DNA of 64,000 bases from NCBI GenBank assembly GCA_902615715.1, contig CACMQA010000003.1:82001-146000 (forward strand), in the 5' to 3' direction. Under the pieces are notes generated by a model that saw only the letters and a list, made by a program, of their open reading frames with translations, did not search any database and was not told the origin of the DNA. The stretch is from an uncultured Pelagibacteraceae bacterium (GTDB taxonomy: Bacteria > Pseudomonadota > Alphaproteobacteria > Pelagibacterales > Pelagibacteraceae). A program made the position numbers and the translations under genes. Positions 1,727-14,600 of the stretch are shown one piece after another. Numbering within the stretch: the first letter of the stretch is position 1; each line of letters begins with the position of its first letter.

Positions 1727-2944
1727 TTACAAATTAGGTTTTATTTTTTTTAATAAGGTCAAACTTAATATAACTTGAATAATTAATAACGACAAACTAT
1801 ATCTCGGTAAAATGAAAAAGATTGAAAAGAGACCAATATTAGAAAAATAATATAAGCTAATATAATTCAAAGCAGAAATTTTAAATCTAAAAGATAAAAT
1901 AATTCCAATTATTGTTGTGATACCTAAAATTATCTTAGGAATAATATGCAAAGGTGAATAATAGTTTTTGTAATCGGCTTCTAAGTCTATCAATGCAAAT
2001 GAGATAACTTTTTTGAAATACAATTTAATATAATTATACGGATCTTCTTTTATGAATTTTATTGCTTGATTAAATAAAATTTTGTCTTGAATTAAATCAT
2101 AATTTTGTATTGGCCCCCTAGATACTAGTTCATTAAGTTCTGTTTTCACTTCTGGGATTACATTTTGAATACCCAAAAACATTGGTGTCCCCTCAACTTT
2201 TGCTCTAGGATTATTTCCTTTAAGCAAATTGTAACCACTAGATTTTGTAATAGTAATTACTCCAAAGATATTATAATTTCTGTAAATATAAGGTGAAATT
2301 GTTAATAAACAAATTAAACAAATTAAAATAATCTTTATAAAGTTTTTTTGTTTTAAATATAAATAAAAAATCGACAGTAATACAAAAATAAAAAATTCTC
2401 CTCTTAAAAGAATCAGTAGTCCAGCAGAAAAAGAAAATATTAATATATATTTATAGGTTAATTTTTTGAAAAGACTTAGATAAGAAAAAAGAAATAGATT
2501 TAATAATAATATCTGCAATGTAGATGATGATATCTGTGAAACAGCGAATACATTTAGTGGAAAAATTGTAAAAATCAGAGTTCCAATTAGCGAGATGTTG
2601 TTTGAAAAAAGTTTAGATAAAATTTTATAAGTCAAATAAACAGAAATAAGCGCAAATAATAATTGTATATATTGAATGACCCATAAAAATAAATCTATAT
2701 TTTGAAAGAAAAATTTCACACAATATAAAAAAATAGGGTATAGAGGCGGCATAAAAATATTTGGCACTGGAACACCTTGTACTGAATGAACACTTAACAT
2801 TCTATTTTTCTCCAAATTCTCAAGCAAAATCCCCCATTCATTCGCTACCTCTATGTCTCTAAAATAATAGAGAGCGAATAATCTTGTTATAACAGCAATA
2901 AAAAATATTAATGGTAATTGAAATTTACTTATTATTTTCATCAA
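1727..2944 (-). CDS. GT-C fold (GT39/ArnT-like) membrane glycosyltransferase
   Basis: Multi-TM protein; N-terminal RLFALYYFRD...EWGILLENLEKN...PPLYPIFLY typical of PMT/ArnT-type polyprenyl-P-sugar transferases. Confidence 0.75.
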   Translation of the reverse strand: MMKIISKFQLPLIFFIAVITRLFALYYFRDIEVANEWGILLENLEKNRMLSVHSVQGVPVPNIFMPPLYPIFLYCVKFFFQNIDLFLWVIQYIQLLFALISVYLTYKILSKLFSNNISLIGTLIFTIFPLNVFAVSQISSSTLQILLLNLFLFSYLSLFKKLTYKYILIFSFSAGLLILLRGEFFIFVLLSIFYLYLKQKNFIKIILICLICLLTISPYIYRNYNIFGVITITKSSGYNLLKGNNPRAKVEGTPMFLGIQNVIPEVKTELNELVSRGPIQNYDLIQDKILFNQAIKFIKEDPYNYIKLYFKKVISFALIDLEADYKNYYSPLHIIPKIILGITTIIGIILSFRFKISALNYISLYYFSNIGLFSIFFILPRYSLSLLIIQVILSLTLLKKIKPNL

Positions 2945-2945
2945 A

Positions 2946-3683
2946 TTACTTAAATTTAAGTTTTCTAAGTATTGAAAAGGGAATTATTTTCAAAATTAAA
3001 TTTACTACCATCCAATACATTGGATAATACGTTTTTTTAAATTTTACTTTTCTATTTTTAAAAACGATATTTGATAATTTTTTTACAGAAGCTTTTGGTA
3101 ATATGAGTTCTTTACCAAAAGATAAATTAGTTGCTAAATATCCTAAAGTATAAAACTGAATATTTGCTTTTTTTAAATCATCATCAAAAGCCATACTTTC
3201 AAAGAATGACTCTAATCCTCTTTTTGCACCCGCGTATGTAACATTAATATCTCTTCCTAAAAATCCTGAAACTGAGCCAAATCCTATTATACTTGTGTTT
3301 TCTTTTTTAATTAGGATTTTTTTTATTTTTTGAATTGTGTAAGCTATAGACACATAATTAGCATTAATTAACCTCGATATACTTTCTGTATTTAAGTTGG
3401 AGTTATCATCATCGAACATCATACCTATTGGGAACATAACACCTGCTAAGTTACTAAGTAAATTATTTTTAGAAAGTAGTTTGTCATTAATTTCATTAAT
3501 TGAAGAAAAATCTAGAGGCAAAACATCTATCTTTACCTTATGTTTAGTTTCTAAATCTGATTTAATTGCATTCAGGTCTCTTTCATCCCTTGAAACAATC
3601 ACTAAGTCGTTATTCTCTTCGGCGAATTTTTTTGCCAATTCTTTTCCTAAGCCAGATGAGGCACCAACAATTAAATATTTCAT
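2946..3683 (-). CDS. SDR family oxidoreductase, DprE2-like
   Basis: GASSGLGKELAKKF Rossmann motif, YAGAKRGLESF catalytic YxxxK; overlaps by 4 nt with a DprE1-like gene. Confidence 0.8.
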   Translation of the reverse strand: MKYLIVGASSGLGKELAKKFAEENNDLVIVSRDERDLNAIKSDLETKHKVKIDVLPLDFSSINEINDKLLSKNNLLSNLAGVMFPIGMMFDDDNSNLNTESISRLINANYVSIAYTIQKIKKILIKKENTSIIGFGSVSGFLGRDINVTYAGAKRGLESFFESMAFDDDLKKANIQFYTLGYLATNLSFGKELILPKASVKKLSNIVFKNRKVKFKKTYYPMYWMVVNLILKIIPFSILRKLKFK

Positions 3684-5008
3684 ATTTCTAATCTATTTGA
3701 TATTTCAGACTGGTATATTCTTTTTCCATCAAACTTACATAATTTTTCCTTAAAGCTAATTAATTCTTCATTGTAACTTTTTTTTATGGTTTCTTTACTT
3801 AATCTAGAGTCTTTAATTACAGAGGGTATAATGTCATATTTATCATAAAGGCTATCTATCTTTGACATAAACAACAAATTTTCCTTATTATTTACGTAAT
3901 CAAAAGTTATACAAATTTTATTATCTTCAAATCTCAAAAATTTTTGTTTTCCATTCATATTTTTCAATGAAAATAAAGTAATTGTTGGTTCAAATTGTTT
4001 AAATAAACTTTTAAACTCTTCAATAAAAGATTCAAATTTTTCCTCACTTATCAATAATTGGCTCTCTATAAAGCCTTTTTTACCAAAAAAATTAAAATAA
4101 TTTTCATTACCATAAAAAGGGAAAATTACATTCAGAAAGTTTTCATTTTTTTCTGACTTGGATAGTTTATTAAGTTTTGAGTATAAAAAATTTACAACAT
4201 TGATGGAAAACTTATTCCACATTGGAAAGATAAATGGTCTAAATTTCCTTTTTACTTCTTTAAATCCATGGAAATCAGATGGATTTTTATCTAAATAATT
4301 TTTGTAAACAAAACCTTTCCCAAAATTAATTAAATTATCAGCTCTATTCCACGTATATGTATATGATGCGTCTTTACTTTCGTCTAAAATAAATTTTTTA
4401 CTTTCTTCAATTGAGTTTACTTCTTTTTTTTCAGTAGTAAACTTTGAACTTTTAATCTCCATAAGTTCGAAGGTAACACTTACTATAGTTCCTGTAAGAC
4501 CAATACCACCAATTGTTAAATCAAAAATTTCCTCGTTTTCCTCTTTAGACAAATTTAACCAACCATGGGTTTTATGAAATAATAAAATACTTTTAATCGA
4601 TTTTCTTATGGTTCCATGTTTGCCACATGATTTTCCATGCACATTAGCTGCAACGGCTCCTCCAATAGTAATAGTAGGATATCCTGGTAATTGTGGGATC
4701 CATAAATTATGTTTCAAAGTAAAATTTAAAAATTCAATTAATGTTAAGCCTGCTTCCACTGTTATAGTTTTTTCTTTCTTATCAAAATGGAGTATTCTAT
4801 CAAAACTCCTTATATTTATTGATAAGCTTTCTTTAGAAAATCCTAAAGGGCTATAAGATAAATTAGATCCTATATTAATTAAATTATTTGAATTATAAGA
4901 AACTTTTTCTAGCAGCTTATACTTATCTGGTTGAGAAAAAATAACATTTGTTGAAAATGATTTGTCAAAAGAGAATAATCTTCTTTTTTCTGTCTGCTGT
5001 TTGCTCAT
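3680..5008 (-). CDS. FAD-linked oxidase, DprE1-like (decaprenylphosphoryl-ribose 2'-oxidase family)
   Basis: PGYPTITIGGAVAANVHGKSCGKHGTI FAD-binding PCMH signature; C-terminal KICITFDY and IKDSR segments resemble DprE1. Confidence 0.78.
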   Translation of the reverse strand: MSKQQTEKRRLFSFDKSFSTNVIFSQPDKYKLLEKVSYNSNNLINIGSNLSYSPLGFSKESLSINIRSFDRILHFDKKEKTITVEAGLTLIEFLNFTLKHNLWIPQLPGYPTITIGGAVAANVHGKSCGKHGTIRKSIKSILLFHKTHGWLNLSKEENEEIFDLTIGGIGLTGTIVSVTFELMEIKSSKFTTEKKEVNSIEESKKFILDESKDASYTYTWNRADNLINFGKGFVYKNYLDKNPSDFHGFKEVKRKFRPFIFPMWNKFSINVVNFLYSKLNKLSKSEKNENFLNVIFPFYGNENYFNFFGKKGFIESQLLISEEKFESFIEEFKSLFKQFEPTITLFSLKNMNGKQKFLRFEDNKICITFDYVNNKENLLFMSKIDSLYDKYDIIPSVIKDSRLSKETIKKSYNEELISFKEKLCKFDGKRIYQSEISNRLEI

Positions 5009-5707
5009 CTAAATTTTAATCTTTATAAATAATTTAAGCATTTCTTTGACCGTCAAAAATATATTTTTTATACTTACTGAAGATCCTGTGCCAAAAGTTC
5101 TTGGATACGTGTGTATACCAACCTCATTTACTTTAAAACCTTTATACTTAGTTTTAATTGCTAATTCAGCACCTAAAAAAGGGCTATCAGAAATTAAATT
5201 AATTTTTTTAAGCAATGTTTTTTTAATTAATCTCGAACCTGTAGATATATCCCGATACTGAGTGTGAAATAGTATTCTCAATAGCGCGTTGTAAATCCAA
5301 GATATTATTATTCTACTGGTTTTATATTTTTTTTTAAATCTATAAGTAATAACTAAATCTGACCTATCTGCTTTTTTTAAAAGTTTAATCAGATCATTTA
5401 CATCATATTCAGCATCTCCATCTGTTTGAAAAATCCATTCATATTTGCATTTCTTTAGACCTGTTTTTATTGCTGCTCCATATCCCATGTTTTTTTTATG
5501 AAAAATTACTTTTGTATTTTTCATTTTCTGTGACAATGATTTAGCGTAAACCCCAGATTTTTCTGGACACCCATCATCCACTATAATAATTTCACTTTTT
5601 TTTTTTAATTTCTTCAGCAATTTTTGACTTCTAAAAATCATCTTTTTTACAGTTCTTCTGTCTTTATAAAGAGGGAAAACAATACTTATCGATTTAATAC
5701 TTTTCAT
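5009..5707 (-). CDS. GT2 family glycosyltransferase, DPM1/polyprenyl-phosphate-sugar synthase-like
   Basis: SIVFPLYKDRRTVKKM...IIIVDDGCPEKSG...NMGYGAAIKTGLKKCKYEWIFQTDGDAEYD GT-A motifs. Confidence 0.85.
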   Translation of the reverse strand: MKSIKSISIVFPLYKDRRTVKKMIFRSQKLLKKLKKKSEIIIVDDGCPEKSGVYAKSLSQKMKNTKVIFHKKNMGYGAAIKTGLKKCKYEWIFQTDGDAEYDVNDLIKLLKKADRSDLVITYRFKKKYKTSRIIISWIYNALLRILFHTQYRDISTGSRLIKKTLLKKINLISDSPFLGAELAIKTKYKGFKVNEVGIHTYPRTFGTGSSVSIKNIFLTVKEMLKLFIKIKI

Positions 5708-5711
5708 AATG

Positions 5712-5788
5712 TGGTGCGCCTGCTAGGATTTGAACCCAGAACCTTCTGGTCCGTAGCCAAACGCTCTATCCAGTTGAGCTACAGGCGC
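5712..5788 (-). tRNA. tRNA-Arg(ACG)
   Basis: Cloverleaf GCGCCTGTAGCTCAACTGGATAGAGCGTTTGGCTACGGACCAGAAGGTTCTGGGTTCAAATCCTAGCAGGCGCACCA; anticodon loop CTACGGA; CCA encoded. Confidence 0.95.
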
Positions 5789-5859: not shown

Positions 5860-7191
5860 ATGCATTTTATTTCAAACCTTAATTTTATCAAAACACAGTA
5901 CTTCAGTGTTATTTTAAGTTTAATTCCGATCAGCTTTATTGCTGGAAATATGATCATTAATATAAATATTATATTATTAATACTTTCAGCTATTATTATT
6001 TTCAGAACAGCATTATTTAGAGTTGAATATTTTCTGCTAGATAAATTGATTTTGTTATTTTTTTTTCTAATTTTGTTTAATGGTGCATATAACGATTTAC
6101 AGCTTTATATCAATGATAGAAAGTTTTCAGATTGGAGAGGGGGGTTCGAGACTGTAAAAAAATCATTATTTTTTTTAAAATACTTGTTACTGTACCTAGT
6201 TTTAAGATTTTTAATTGAAAAGAAAATAATTAATTTGAAATTATTTTTTATAACTTGCTCAATTTCATCTTTATTTGTTTGTTTTGATATTTTTTATCAA
6301 TATAGGTTTGGTCAAGATATTTTTGGATATCAAACTTTAGGTTCAGGTAGAAAATTAGGAGGTCCATTTGGAGACGAGCTAATAGCTGGAGGTTTTATCC
6401 AAAGATTTTCTTTATTCTCTTTCTTTGTATTGCCTTTATTTTTCACTAATAAATCAAAATTTTTATCTAAGTATTTAATTCCAATTTTATTTATCATTTT
6501 TTTGGTTGGTTTAATATTATCAGGCAATAGAATGCCTTTGATACTTTTTGTATTTTCTATTTTCCTCATACTATTATTTAATAAACAAGTAAGAAAATAC
6601 TTTTTACCTTTTATAATTATTTTTACACTTCTTTTTTCAATTATTTTTAATTTTAACTTAGAGGTAAGAACAAATTTCCAAAACTTTTATAAACAAGTAT
6701 CAAAAATAACTCTGATTGTTCTTAATAAAGATTTGGGCAATCAAAGAGTTCCGCAATATTTCAAAGAGTTTAGTAGTTTTTATGATACATGGTTGCTGAA
6801 TAAATATATAGGTGGTGGAGTTAAAAATTTTAGATATTACTGTCATGTTAGACCAAACATTGACCGGAATTCTGATTTTATTTGTAATATGCACCCACAT
6901 AACTATTACTTGGAAATATTAACTGAAACAGGATTGATTGGTTTTTTAATTTGTGTGAGTATTTTTATTTTGGTTATATACATCTCGCTTATTAAAAAGT
7001 ATTTTATAAACTCACCGCTTAGTAAGAATAATATTATAGTCCCATTCGTATTTTTATTCTTAGTTGAAATTTTTCCTTTAAAAAGCACTGGTAGCTTTTT
7101 CACTACTGGAAATACAACATATATTTTTCTAATTATGGCTATTTTAGTTGGTATTGTTAGAAATGAAAATTCAATTGAAAAAAAATATTAA
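5860..7191 (+). CDS. O-antigen ligase/polymerase family (Wzy/WaaL-like) membrane protein
   Basis: Multi-TM, LILSGNRMPLILF and HPHNYYLEILTETGLIGFLI motif typical of Wzy_C/O-antigen ligase domain. Confidence 0.85.
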   Translation: MHFISNLNFIKTQYFSVILSLIPISFIAGNMIININIILLILSAIIIFRTALFRVEYFLLDKLILLFFFLILFNGAYNDLQLYINDRKFSDWRGGFETVKKSLFFLKYLLLYLVLRFLIEKKIINLKLFFITCSISSLFVCFDIFYQYRFGQDIFGYQTLGSGRKLGGPFGDELIAGGFIQRFSLFSFFVLPLFFTNKSKFLSKYLIPILFIIFLVGLILSGNRMPLILFVFSIFLILLFNKQVRKYFLPFIIIFTLLFSIIFNFNLEVRTNFQNFYKQVSKITLIVLNKDLGNQRVPQYFKEFSSFYDTWLLNKYIGGGVKNFRYYCHVRPNIDRNSDFICNMHPHNYYLEILTETGLIGFLICVSIFILVIYISLIKKYFINSPLSKNNIIVPFVFLFLVEIFPLKSTGSFFTTGNTTYIFLIMAILVGIVRNENSIEKKY

Positions 7192-11591: not shown

Positions 11592-14500
11592 ATGGCTCAG
11601 AATATTTCAGTTCCAGATATAGGTGATTTTAAAGACGTAGAGGTCATAGAAGTTTTAGTTAAACCTGGAGACCAAATAAACAAGAATGATCCTATTGTTA
11701 CAATTGAAAGTGACAAGTCCAGTGTGGAAATACCTTCACCTGCTGCTGGAGAAATTAAAGATTTAAAAGTTAAAATTGGAGATAAAGTTTCAGAGGGAAG
11801 CGTATTAGCAACTATAGAAAATGGTCAAGCTGCATCAGCTCCAAAAGAGAAAAAAATTGAAAAAGAAGTTCAAACTCAAGAAAAACCAAAAACTAATGGC
11901 GAGGTAAATCAGGTAAGACAAGTTAAGAAAGTCTTTGCTGAACCAGCTTCTAAAGATGACATTGATCCTATTGAGACTAATGAGTGGATAGACTCTCTAA
12001 ATTCAGTTATTGAAAACGATGGTTCTTCAAGAGCAAGTTACTTATTAAACAAAGTTATCGATCAAGCTTATAAATCTGGCTTAGTTCTTCCAGATACAAG
12101 AACAACTCCTTATATAAATACTATTCCGCCAGAAGCTGAAGCAAAATCACCTGGCGATCAAAATATTGAAAAAAAAATACGGGCATATGTAAGGTGGAAT
12201 GCGGCAGCTATGGTTGTTAAGGCTAATAAAAAAAGTCCTGAACTAGGTGGCCATATCGGTACTTTTGCATCTGCAGCCACACTTTATGATGTGGGAATGA
12301 ATCATTTTTGGAGAGCAAAGAATAATAAATTTGGTGGAGATTTAATTTATTTTCAAGGGCACTCCGCTCCAGGAATGTACGCTCGAGCTTTCTTAGAGGG
12401 AAGACTTACTTCAAAACAACTTGATGGTTTTAGGCAAGAAGTAAATAAAGGAGGTTTGTCATCATATCCCCACCCTTGGTTGATGCCAAAGTTCTGGCAG
12501 TTTCCAACGGTCTCTATGGGTCTAGGACCCATCATGGCTATATATCAAGCCAGATTTTTAAAATATTTAATTAATAGAGGGTTGGTTAAAGATGAAGGAA
12601 GAAAAATTTGGGTATTTCTTGGTGATGGTGAAATGGATGAACCTGAGTCACTTGGTGCAATTGGATTAGCTGCTCGTGAAAAATTAGATAATTTAATTTT
12701 TGTTGTAAATTGTAATTTGCAAAGACTGGACGGTCCCGTTCGAGGAAATAGTAAAATTATTCAGGAACTAGAGGGTAGCTTTAGAGGTTCGGGTTGGAAT
12801 GTAATAAAAGTTATTTGGGGATCATACTGGGATCAATTATTAGCCAAAGATAAAACGGGCCTTCTTATAAAGAGAATGAATGAATGCGTAGATGGAGAAT
12901 ACCAAGCGTTTAAGGCTAAAGGTGGTTCATATGTTAGAGAAAAGTTTTTTGGAAAATATCCTGAGCTTACTGAACTTGTTTCTTCATTATCAGATAAAGA
13001 TATTTGGAGATTAAATAGAGGTGGCCATGATCCTCACAAAGTTTATGCAGCATACGCAGCAGCAATACAACATGCTGGATCACCTACGGTTATCTTAGCA
13101 AAAACTATTAAAGGATATGGAATGGGTAAAACAGGTGAAAGTGTAAACACAACCCACCAACAAAAAAAATTAGATGAGGAAGATCTACTTTACTATAGAG
13201 ACAGATTTAATGTCCCGCTTACAGATAAACAAGTTAAAGATATAGAGTATTACAAACCAAGCGAGAGTTCTGAAGAGATTAAATATTTAAAAGATAAGAG
13301 AATAAAACTAGGTGGTTTTATTCCAGAACGATCATCTTTTGCAAAACAAATTAAAGCTCCACCAAAAGACATCTTTGATGCATTCATGAAATCAACCGGG
13401 GAAAAAGAAATGTCTACGACAATGGCTTTAGTGAGAATGATGACTGCACTCCTTAGAGATAAAAATGTTGCACCAAGGTTAGTACCAATTATCCCTGACG
13501 AAGCGAGAACTTTTGGAATGGAGGGTTTCTTTCAAAAAATTGGTATTTATGCCCACGAGGGACAAAAATATGAGCCAGTGGACTCTGAACAGCTAAGTTC
13601 ATATCGAGAAGATAAAAGTGGACAAGTTTTAGAAGAAGGTATCAATGAGTCTGGGGCAATGTCATCCTGGATTGCAGCAGGAACCGCTTATACTAATCAT
13701 GATATCGAAATGATACCAGTTTATATTTTCTATTCTATGTTCGGATTTCAAAGAGTTGGGGATTTAGCATGGGCAGCTGGTGACTCTCAAGCAAGAGGTT
13801 TTTTAATTGGAGCAACAGCAGGAAGAACCACATTAGCTGGAGAAGGATTACAACACCAAGACGGACATAGTCAGTTGTTAGCATCAAACATCCCAAACTG
13901 CATTAGTTATGACCCAACGTTTGCTTACGAGATGGCAACAATATTTAGAGAAGGCTTAAGAAGAATGCATGAAAAGAAAGAGAATGTCTTCTACTACATC
14001 ACTGCAATGAATGAAAACTACTCTCATCCAGAAAAACCTAAAGGTTGTAAAGATGGTATTTTAAAAGGAATGTACTTATTCAAAGAAGGAAAAAATAAAG
14101 GAAAAACTAAAGTTCAATTATTAGGTTCAGGAACAATTTTAAGAGAAATCATATCCGCTTCTGAAATCTTGTCAAAAGAATATAATATAGATGCAGACAT
14201 ATGGAGCGTGACAAGTTTTAATGAATTAAGAAGAGATGGAATGGAAACTGAAAGATTGAATCTTTTAAATCCAAATAAAAAACCAAAAAAATCTTACGTT
14301 CAAGAATGTTTATCAAAAAGAGATGGACCAGTCATAGCAGCTTCAGATTATACAAGAGCATTCACTGATCAAATAAGACCTTACACAGACAAAAAGTTTT
14401 ATTCATTTGGAACAGATGGTTACGGAAGAAGTGACACGAGGAAAAATCTTAGAAAATTTTTTGAGGTAGATAAAGAGCATATTGTAGCCTTTACCTTAAG

Positions 14501-14600
14501 CGCATTAGCAAAAGAACAACTTGTTGGCTCTGAAGAAGCAGAAAAAGCAATTAAAAAATATAAGATAGACAAAGAGAAGGATTTCCCAGCGAACTTATAA
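11592..14600 (+). CDS. aceE: Pyruvate dehydrogenase E1 (homodimeric type) with fused N-terminal lipoyl domain
   Basis: Residues ~1-80 are a lipoyl domain (SVPDIGDFKDVEVIEVLVKPGD...TIESDKSSVEIPSP), followed by full-length AceE (GHIGTFASAATLYDVGMNHFW, LGDGEMDEPESLGAI, GMGKTGE). Confidence 0.95.
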   Translation: MAQNISVPDIGDFKDVEVIEVLVKPGDQINKNDPIVTIESDKSSVEIPSPAAGEIKDLKVKIGDKVSEGSVLATIENGQAASAPKEKKIEKEVQTQEKPKTNGEVNQVRQVKKVFAEPASKDDIDPIETNEWIDSLNSVIENDGSSRASYLLNKVIDQAYKSGLVLPDTRTTPYINTIPPEAEAKSPGDQNIEKKIRAYVRWNAAAMVVKANKKSPELGGHIGTFASAATLYDVGMNHFWRAKNNKFGGDLIYFQGHSAPGMYARAFLEGRLTSKQLDGFRQEVNKGGLSSYPHPWLMPKFWQFPTVSMGLGPIMAIYQARFLKYLINRGLVKDEGRKIWVFLGDGEMDEPESLGAIGLAAREKLDNLIFVVNCNLQRLDGPVRGNSKIIQELEGSFRGSGWNVIKVIWGSYWDQLLAKDKTGLLIKRMNECVDGEYQAFKAKGGSYVREKFFGKYPELTELVSSLSDKDIWRLNRGGHDPHKVYAAYAAAIQHAGSPTVILAKTIKGYGMGKTGESVNTTHQQKKLDEEDLLYYRDRFNVPLTDKQVKDIEYYKPSESSEEIKYLKDKRIKLGGFIPERSSFAKQIKAPPKDIFDAFMKSTGEKEMSTTMALVRMMTALLRDKNVAPRLVPIIPDEARTFGMEGFFQKIGIYAHEGQKYEPVDSEQLSSYREDKSGQVLEEGINESGAMSSWIAAGTAYTNHDIEMIPVYIFYSMFGFQRVGDLAWAAGDSQARGFLIGATAGRTTLAGEGLQHQDGHSQLLASNIPNCISYDPTFAYEMATIFREGLRRMHEKKENVFYYITAMNENYSHPEKPKGCKDGILKGMYLFKEGKNKGKTKVQLLGSGTILREIISASEILSKEYNIDADIWSVTSFNELRRDGMETERLNLLNPNKKPKKSYVQECLSKRDGPVIAASDYTRAFTDQIRPYTDKKFYSFGTDGYGRSDTRKNLRKFFEVDKEHIVAFTLSALAKEQLVGSEEAEKAIKKYKIDKEKDFPANL

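Follow-up and report, generated by a model that had tools for sequence, protein, structure and literature searches.

A GT2-linked DprE1/DprE2-like gene module in a SAR11 genome, a candidate for epimerization of a lipid-linked sugar

The window analysed here is a 64 000-nucleotide stretch of contig CACMQA010000003.1 from a Pelagibacteraceae (SAR11) draft genome (1.06 Mb, 14 contigs, 95 % complete), the closest named relatives of which, in the gene search, are uncultured Pelagibacteraceae single cells, also SAR11. Three adjoining genes encode a GT2 glycosyltransferase, an oxidase dependent on flavin adenine dinucleotide (FAD) and a short-chain dehydrogenase/reductase (SDR). With moderate confidence, these are interpreted as a module making an epimerized polyprenyl-phosphate sugar, the adjacent GT-C-fold membrane glycosyltransferase being its likeliest user. 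DprE1 and DprE2, which the oxidase and SDR resemble, form a known route to lipid-linked arabinose from ribose derived from phosphoribosyl pyrophosphate (PRPP), and are a tuberculosis drug target. Comparison of the window with known systems suggests a GT2-coupled variant of lipid-linked sugar epimerization.

All four genes lie on the minus strand: the GT2, a likely polyprenyl-phosphate sugar synthase (5009–5707, 232 aa), the DprE1-like oxidase (3680–5008, 442 aa), the DprE2-like SDR (2946–3683, 245 aa) and the GT-C gene (1727–2944, 405 aa, with a probable ATG start at 2941). Adjacent genes overlap by 4 bases or meet within 1–2 bases, and each exceeds the curated cut-off of its Pfam family (Glycos_transf_2, FAD_binding_4, adh_short and PMT_2, respectively). 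The four contiguous open reading frames at 1727–5707, and the families guessed for them in an earlier note on this DNA, are thus confirmed; the reading of the whole as a DprE1/DprE2-like cassette is partly supported. The GT2–oxidase pair is kept in five further SAR11 loci (L027–L030 and L045), of which three or more occupy a different place in the genome, and the SDR accompanies it in four of the five. Because it is conserved in these loci, the pairing is not attributable to chance.

Two branches of DprE1-like oxidase

The oxidase is closest to DprE1 in profile score, sequence and predicted fold. DprE1 is its best NCBIfam model (147 bits; lactone oxidase models score approximately 50), and its best sequence relatives of solved structure are mycobacterial DprE1 proteins (E 3e-25), ahead of galactonolactone dehydrogenase. 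An AlphaFold2 model (pLDDT 91) has the DprE1 fold, with DprE1 structures as top matches (TM approximately 0.83–0.86) and lactone dehydrogenase ranking later. A sugar lactone oxidase or lactate dehydrogenase, either of which would have overturned the earlier assignment as a DprE1-like FAD oxidase, is ruled out by the profile, sequence and fold rankings. The oxidase falls below the DprE1 equivalog cut-off (147 vs 500 bits). This cut-off is strict, since proteobacterial oxidases linked to a phosphoribosyl-lipid synthase (PPPRS) also fall below it, at 354–391 bits; members of the window's own branch score 147–222 bits.

SAR11 and samples at class and phylum level supplied the homologues, whose neighbouring genes were identified on the DNA itself. 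The oxidase tree (76 rows) does not place the window protein with the PPPRS-linked oxidases but in an 18-row group with no PPPRS neighbours; 42 of the remaining 58 rows adjoin a PPPRS gene. The GT2-linked branch is termed clade I and the PPPRS-linked branch clade II. Support for the split is 99/98, rising to 100/100 in a reduced 36-row set, and a separately built SDR tree recovers the same division (SH-aLRT 99). Mycobacterium smegmatis DprE1 falls on the clade II side of the 76-row oxidase tree, which is unrooted. Four oxidases were left aside from clade I: the very long-branched L073 and three long-branch SAR11 DprE1-like sequences (L036:7135–9652, L038:9553–12073 and L039:416–2939). The latter three represent a further variant, lying beside a DegT-type aminotransferase gene with no adjacent SDR and having the equivalent of Lys134 changed to Ile.

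The pocket of the window oxidase keeps the equivalents of Mycobacterium tuberculosis Tyr60, His132, Gly133, Lys134, Trp230, Gln336, Lys367 and Lys418. Five changes are consistent in clade I: Thr118 to Tyr/His, Ser/Val228 to Tyr, Tyr/Phe314 to Ile/Leu, Gln334 to Glu and Tyr415 to Ser/Asn. Gln334 is replaced by Glu in 12 of 13 clade I rows and kept in 55 of 56 rows of the other clade; the window oxidase itself has Glu315, Tyr110 and Ser396 where the ribose-linked clade has Gln334, Thr118 and Tyr415. Most of the compared positions are among the inhibitor contact residues of DprE1 complexes (PMC6128881). A conserved core with five changes suggests that the same chemistry may act on a different sugar.

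A profile search of the window genome detects no recognizable PPPRS in the 95 % complete draft. Its two UbiA-family genes both lie away from the locus and reach no more than 28 bits; the earlier observation that no UbiA-type DPPR synthase was visible thus holds genome-wide, and a PPPRS hidden elsewhere in the genome was looked for and not found. Among 12 clade I genomes, 11 yield either nothing or matches at the UbiA/CtaB level (≤45 bits); in G812, a 171-bit match lies far from the oxidase–SDR pair. Five clade II genomes with PPPRS beside the oxidase give hits of at least 365 bits. Lack of a PPPRS is not by itself diagnostic, however, because five SAR11 genomes (G032, G112, G261, G066 and G200) encode clade II oxidases yet have no PPPRS hit.

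Two further SAR11 arrangements may be recorded. At L011:8151–11791 (G032, 84 % complete), an oxidase–SDR pair of the ribose-linked clade adjoins a GT-C-like gene, in a genome with no PPPRS-strength hit. At L034:6907–10393, a clade II oxidase has a radical SAM protein on one side and an SDR of another kind on the other, again in a genome with no PPPRS hit.

Partner enzymes and gene neighbourhoods

The SAR11 GT2 is a short form lacking transmembrane helices (Pfam PF00535, 71 bits), with DGD and RDxSxGSR motifs that are invariant across SAR11 orthologues. The best solved relatives of the window protein are ArnC, an archaeal dolichol-phosphate-mannose synthase and the GtrB-like sll0501. It passes no single equivalog cut-off, but its nearest relatives are polyprenyl-phosphate sugar synthases of the ArnC/DPM1 type, in agreement with the DPM1-type GT2 originally proposed. 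Of 297 genomes sampled, three match this GT2 at ≥440 bits, and all three carry the oxidase. Elsewhere in clade I, the neighbouring GT2 is short and DPM1-like in G421, and ArnC/PgfS-like in G540 and G938 (145–164 bits on the ArnC model). The same redox enzymes are therefore paired with different synthases that belong to a single functional class.

The SDR passes neither relevant model, scoring 51 bits on DprE2 (cut-off 250) and 106 bits on PRK07102 (cut-off 267). The latter, its closest NCBIfam model, describes the SDR that accompanies UbiA-HAD (PRK08238) in the proteobacterial PPPRS-linked version of the system. Control SDRs from PPPRS-linked loci score 319–331 bits on this model, compared with 106–111 in the window's branch. 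Ser137, Tyr150 and Lys154 are invariant among the SAR11 orthologues.

Fourteen clade I loci from Pseudomonadota were compared (the window, L027–L030, L045, L104–L108 and L116–L118). The 14 are not independent cases: L029, L030 and L045 form one set of near duplicates, and L105 and L106 another. PPPRS is next to the oxidase in none of the 14, and a GT2, of polyprenyl-phosphate sugar synthase type in those tested, is beside it in nine (the window, L027–L030, L045, L104, L116 and, divergently transcribed, L107). In L106 (4427–9724), and also in L105, the clade I pair seems to share an operon with genes for a GT2, a methyltransferase and a B12-binding radical SAM protein.

A proposed pathway and its alternatives

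As its family suggests, the GT2 would load polyprenyl phosphate with a sugar taken from a nucleotide-sugar. By homology with DprE1/DprE2 and from the conserved residues, the oxidase would convert a ring hydroxyl, probably the one at C2, into a keto group, and the SDR, using NAD(P)H, would reduce this intermediate to give the inverted configuration; the choice of C2 follows the DprE1/DprE2 analogy. The lipid-linked sugar would be flipped by a carrier, and a GT-C enzyme would attach it to an envelope glycan, the adjacent position of the 1727–2944 gene product making it the likeliest user here.

The sugar is probably not ribose from PRPP, and a hexose is more likely. One tentative possibility is a lipid-linked hexose 2-epimerase, a hexose branch of the DprE1/DprE2 superfamily, in which GT2-made polyprenyl-phosphate glucose or galactose would be converted on the lipid to mannose or talose. 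A GalE gene adjoining the GT2–oxidase–SDR trio at L028 hints weakly at galactose. The nucleotide-sugar genes of the window genome (GalU-, RmlA/RmlB-, ManC-, Gmd-, CDP-glucose- and PseB-type) form too broad a repertoire to pick the sugar.

Several points weigh against a GT2-coupled epimerization module. We infer each of its steps, and the likely class of its sugar, from sequence and predicted structure, and SDRs are a promiscuous superfamily. The GT2 lies only within approximately 1.8–3 kb of the oxidase in L105, L106 and L117, and none is in view at L108 and L118. The G399 locus has the GT2, oxidase and GT-C genes with approximately 50 bases at the SDR position, and the clade I SDR was not found elsewhere in this 83 % complete genome (best match 79 bits, against approximately 430). 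G399 may have lost the reductase, use a substitute or make a keto-sugar product. The last of these would fit an oxidase acting away from C2, or a keto product that is final in some strains, so that the module yields a keto or rare sugar rather than a C2 epimer. The five consistent pocket differences could be accommodated in the same way, but this explanation is improbable overall: 13 of the 14 clade I loci have both oxidase and SDR, and the trees of the two are congruent, as expected for an oxidation–reduction pair. Their co-occurrence in relatives, anticipated in the earlier note, thus holds, with G399 as the one exception. A further point is that, in the reduced 36-row set, an approximately unbiased (AU) test leaves M. 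smegmatis DprE1 acceptable at the base of the clade I side (p 0.167); the firm separation from clade I is thus limited to the proteobacterial oxidases with PPPRS linkage. This leaves some room for a conventional ribose-to-arabinose pathway, with PPPRS encoded elsewhere or missing from the incomplete draft and the GT2 an unrelated neighbour, as do the shared superfamily and the conserved catalytic-pocket residues. Such a pathway is nevertheless very unlikely, given the lack of PPPRS in 11 of 12 clade I genomes, the distant and low-scoring UbiA-family genes of the window genome, the far higher DprE1-model scores of clade II, the pocket substitutions and the repeated GT2 adjacency. Arabinose, the product first envisaged, is itself unlikely, as neither redox enzyme belongs to the PPPRS-linked branch and the oxidase has an altered pocket.

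The last step is the subject of a separate doubt, one that leaves the proposed roles of the three module enzymes untouched but conflicts with that of the GT-C. The product of the module may enter a pathway in which the adjacent GT-C has no part; the GT-C would then have kept its ancestral donor, adjacency reflecting insertion beside a tRNA gene. This is rather unlikely, although GT-C homologues occupy this tRNA-Arg site where the trio is missing, and the trio is found elsewhere without this GT-C. In both the window genome and G399, the trio or duo is directly upstream of the GT-C gene on one strand, and a large multi-helix membrane protein is encoded near several other clade I loci.

Like mycobacterial DprE1/DprE2, the proposed system would combine an FAD oxidase and an SDR acting on a polyprenyl-phosphate sugar, and it shares the oxidase fold and most pocket residues. 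It differs in that the sugar is apparently loaded by a GT2, not by a UbiA-type phosphoribosyltransferase, in the five pocket changes, and in its separation from PPPRS-linked pairs in both trees. Gram-negative pentofuranose systems comprise PPPRS, a flippase, GT-C and optional epimerases, with PPPRS-made undecaprenyl-phosphate-ribofuranose proposed as the common entry (PMC11127046). A lipid-phosphate sugar, epimerization on the lipid and GT-C transfer would be common to these and the window system, in which no PPPRS was found and no flippase identified. ArnC/ArnT and GtrB/Gtr systems are similar in that a GT2 loads polyprenyl phosphate and a GT-C uses the product, and ArnC is the closest structure to the window GT2. 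Systems of these types are not known to include an oxidase/SDR pair that alters the sugar while it is lipid-linked. No publication describing a GT2-linked DprE pair was found in a literature search whose reach largely left out subscription journals. If a second, GT2-tied DprE branch does exist, epimerization on the lipid would be a more general means of diversifying envelope sugars, marine and other Pseudomonadota may carry unrecognized sugars, and natural variants would be available for studying DprE1 substrate choice.

The tRNA-Arg locus

The GT-C product scores 27.6 bits on PMT_2 (cut-off 26.1). A profile search among solved sequences gave no relatives; these came from fold comparison, in which Foldseek matched the predicted model (pLDDT 90) to oligosaccharyltransferases, ArnT and AftB. 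Profile and model together bear out the GT-C type suggested for this neighbour. Directly upstream of the GT2 is a tRNA-Arg (ACG) gene (5712–5788, minus strand), overlooked in the earlier note. In SAR11 relatives lacking the trio, only a few bases separate tRNA-Arg from the GT-C homologue (31–45 % identical in alignment) that follows it; in the window the trio, and in G399 the duo, sits between the two. Three of the five SAR11 trio or duo loci examined (L028, L029 and L030) have the trio in other surroundings without a homologous GT-C. The description of a four-gene cassette is therefore too broad, since many SAR11 genomes have the GT-C but not the trio.

Two genes on the plus strand flank the module as conserved neighbours outside it: uppP, encoding undecaprenyl-diphosphatase (Pfam BacA/UppP; 876–1634), and a Wzy_C/O-antigen ligase-like gene (5860–7191). 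Synteny with the Wzy gene exists without the trio in L183, L186–L190 and L192, and with uppP in L188 and L192; these last two retain the full order of uppP, GT-C, tRNA-Arg and Wzy with the trio alone missing. The functional role once given to these flanks is undermined by this trio-free synteny. The GT-C is a resident gene of the tRNA-Arg/GT-C/Wzy locus and the probable user of the lipid-linked sugar.

The simplest reading is that the trio was gained as a mobile unit next to tRNA-Arg, loss elsewhere being the alternative. No shift in base composition was seen at the trio. Carriage by a phage or plasmid was considered and rejected, with no phage match and plasmid matches limited to ≤60 % query coverage at approximately 27–32 % identity. 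Across SAR11 genomes, the tRNA-Arg (ACG) site is flanked by variable envelope genes. Elsewhere in the window, at 11592–14600, a pyruvate dehydrogenase E1 (AceE) has a lipoyl-type N-terminal domain, a part normally found on E2.

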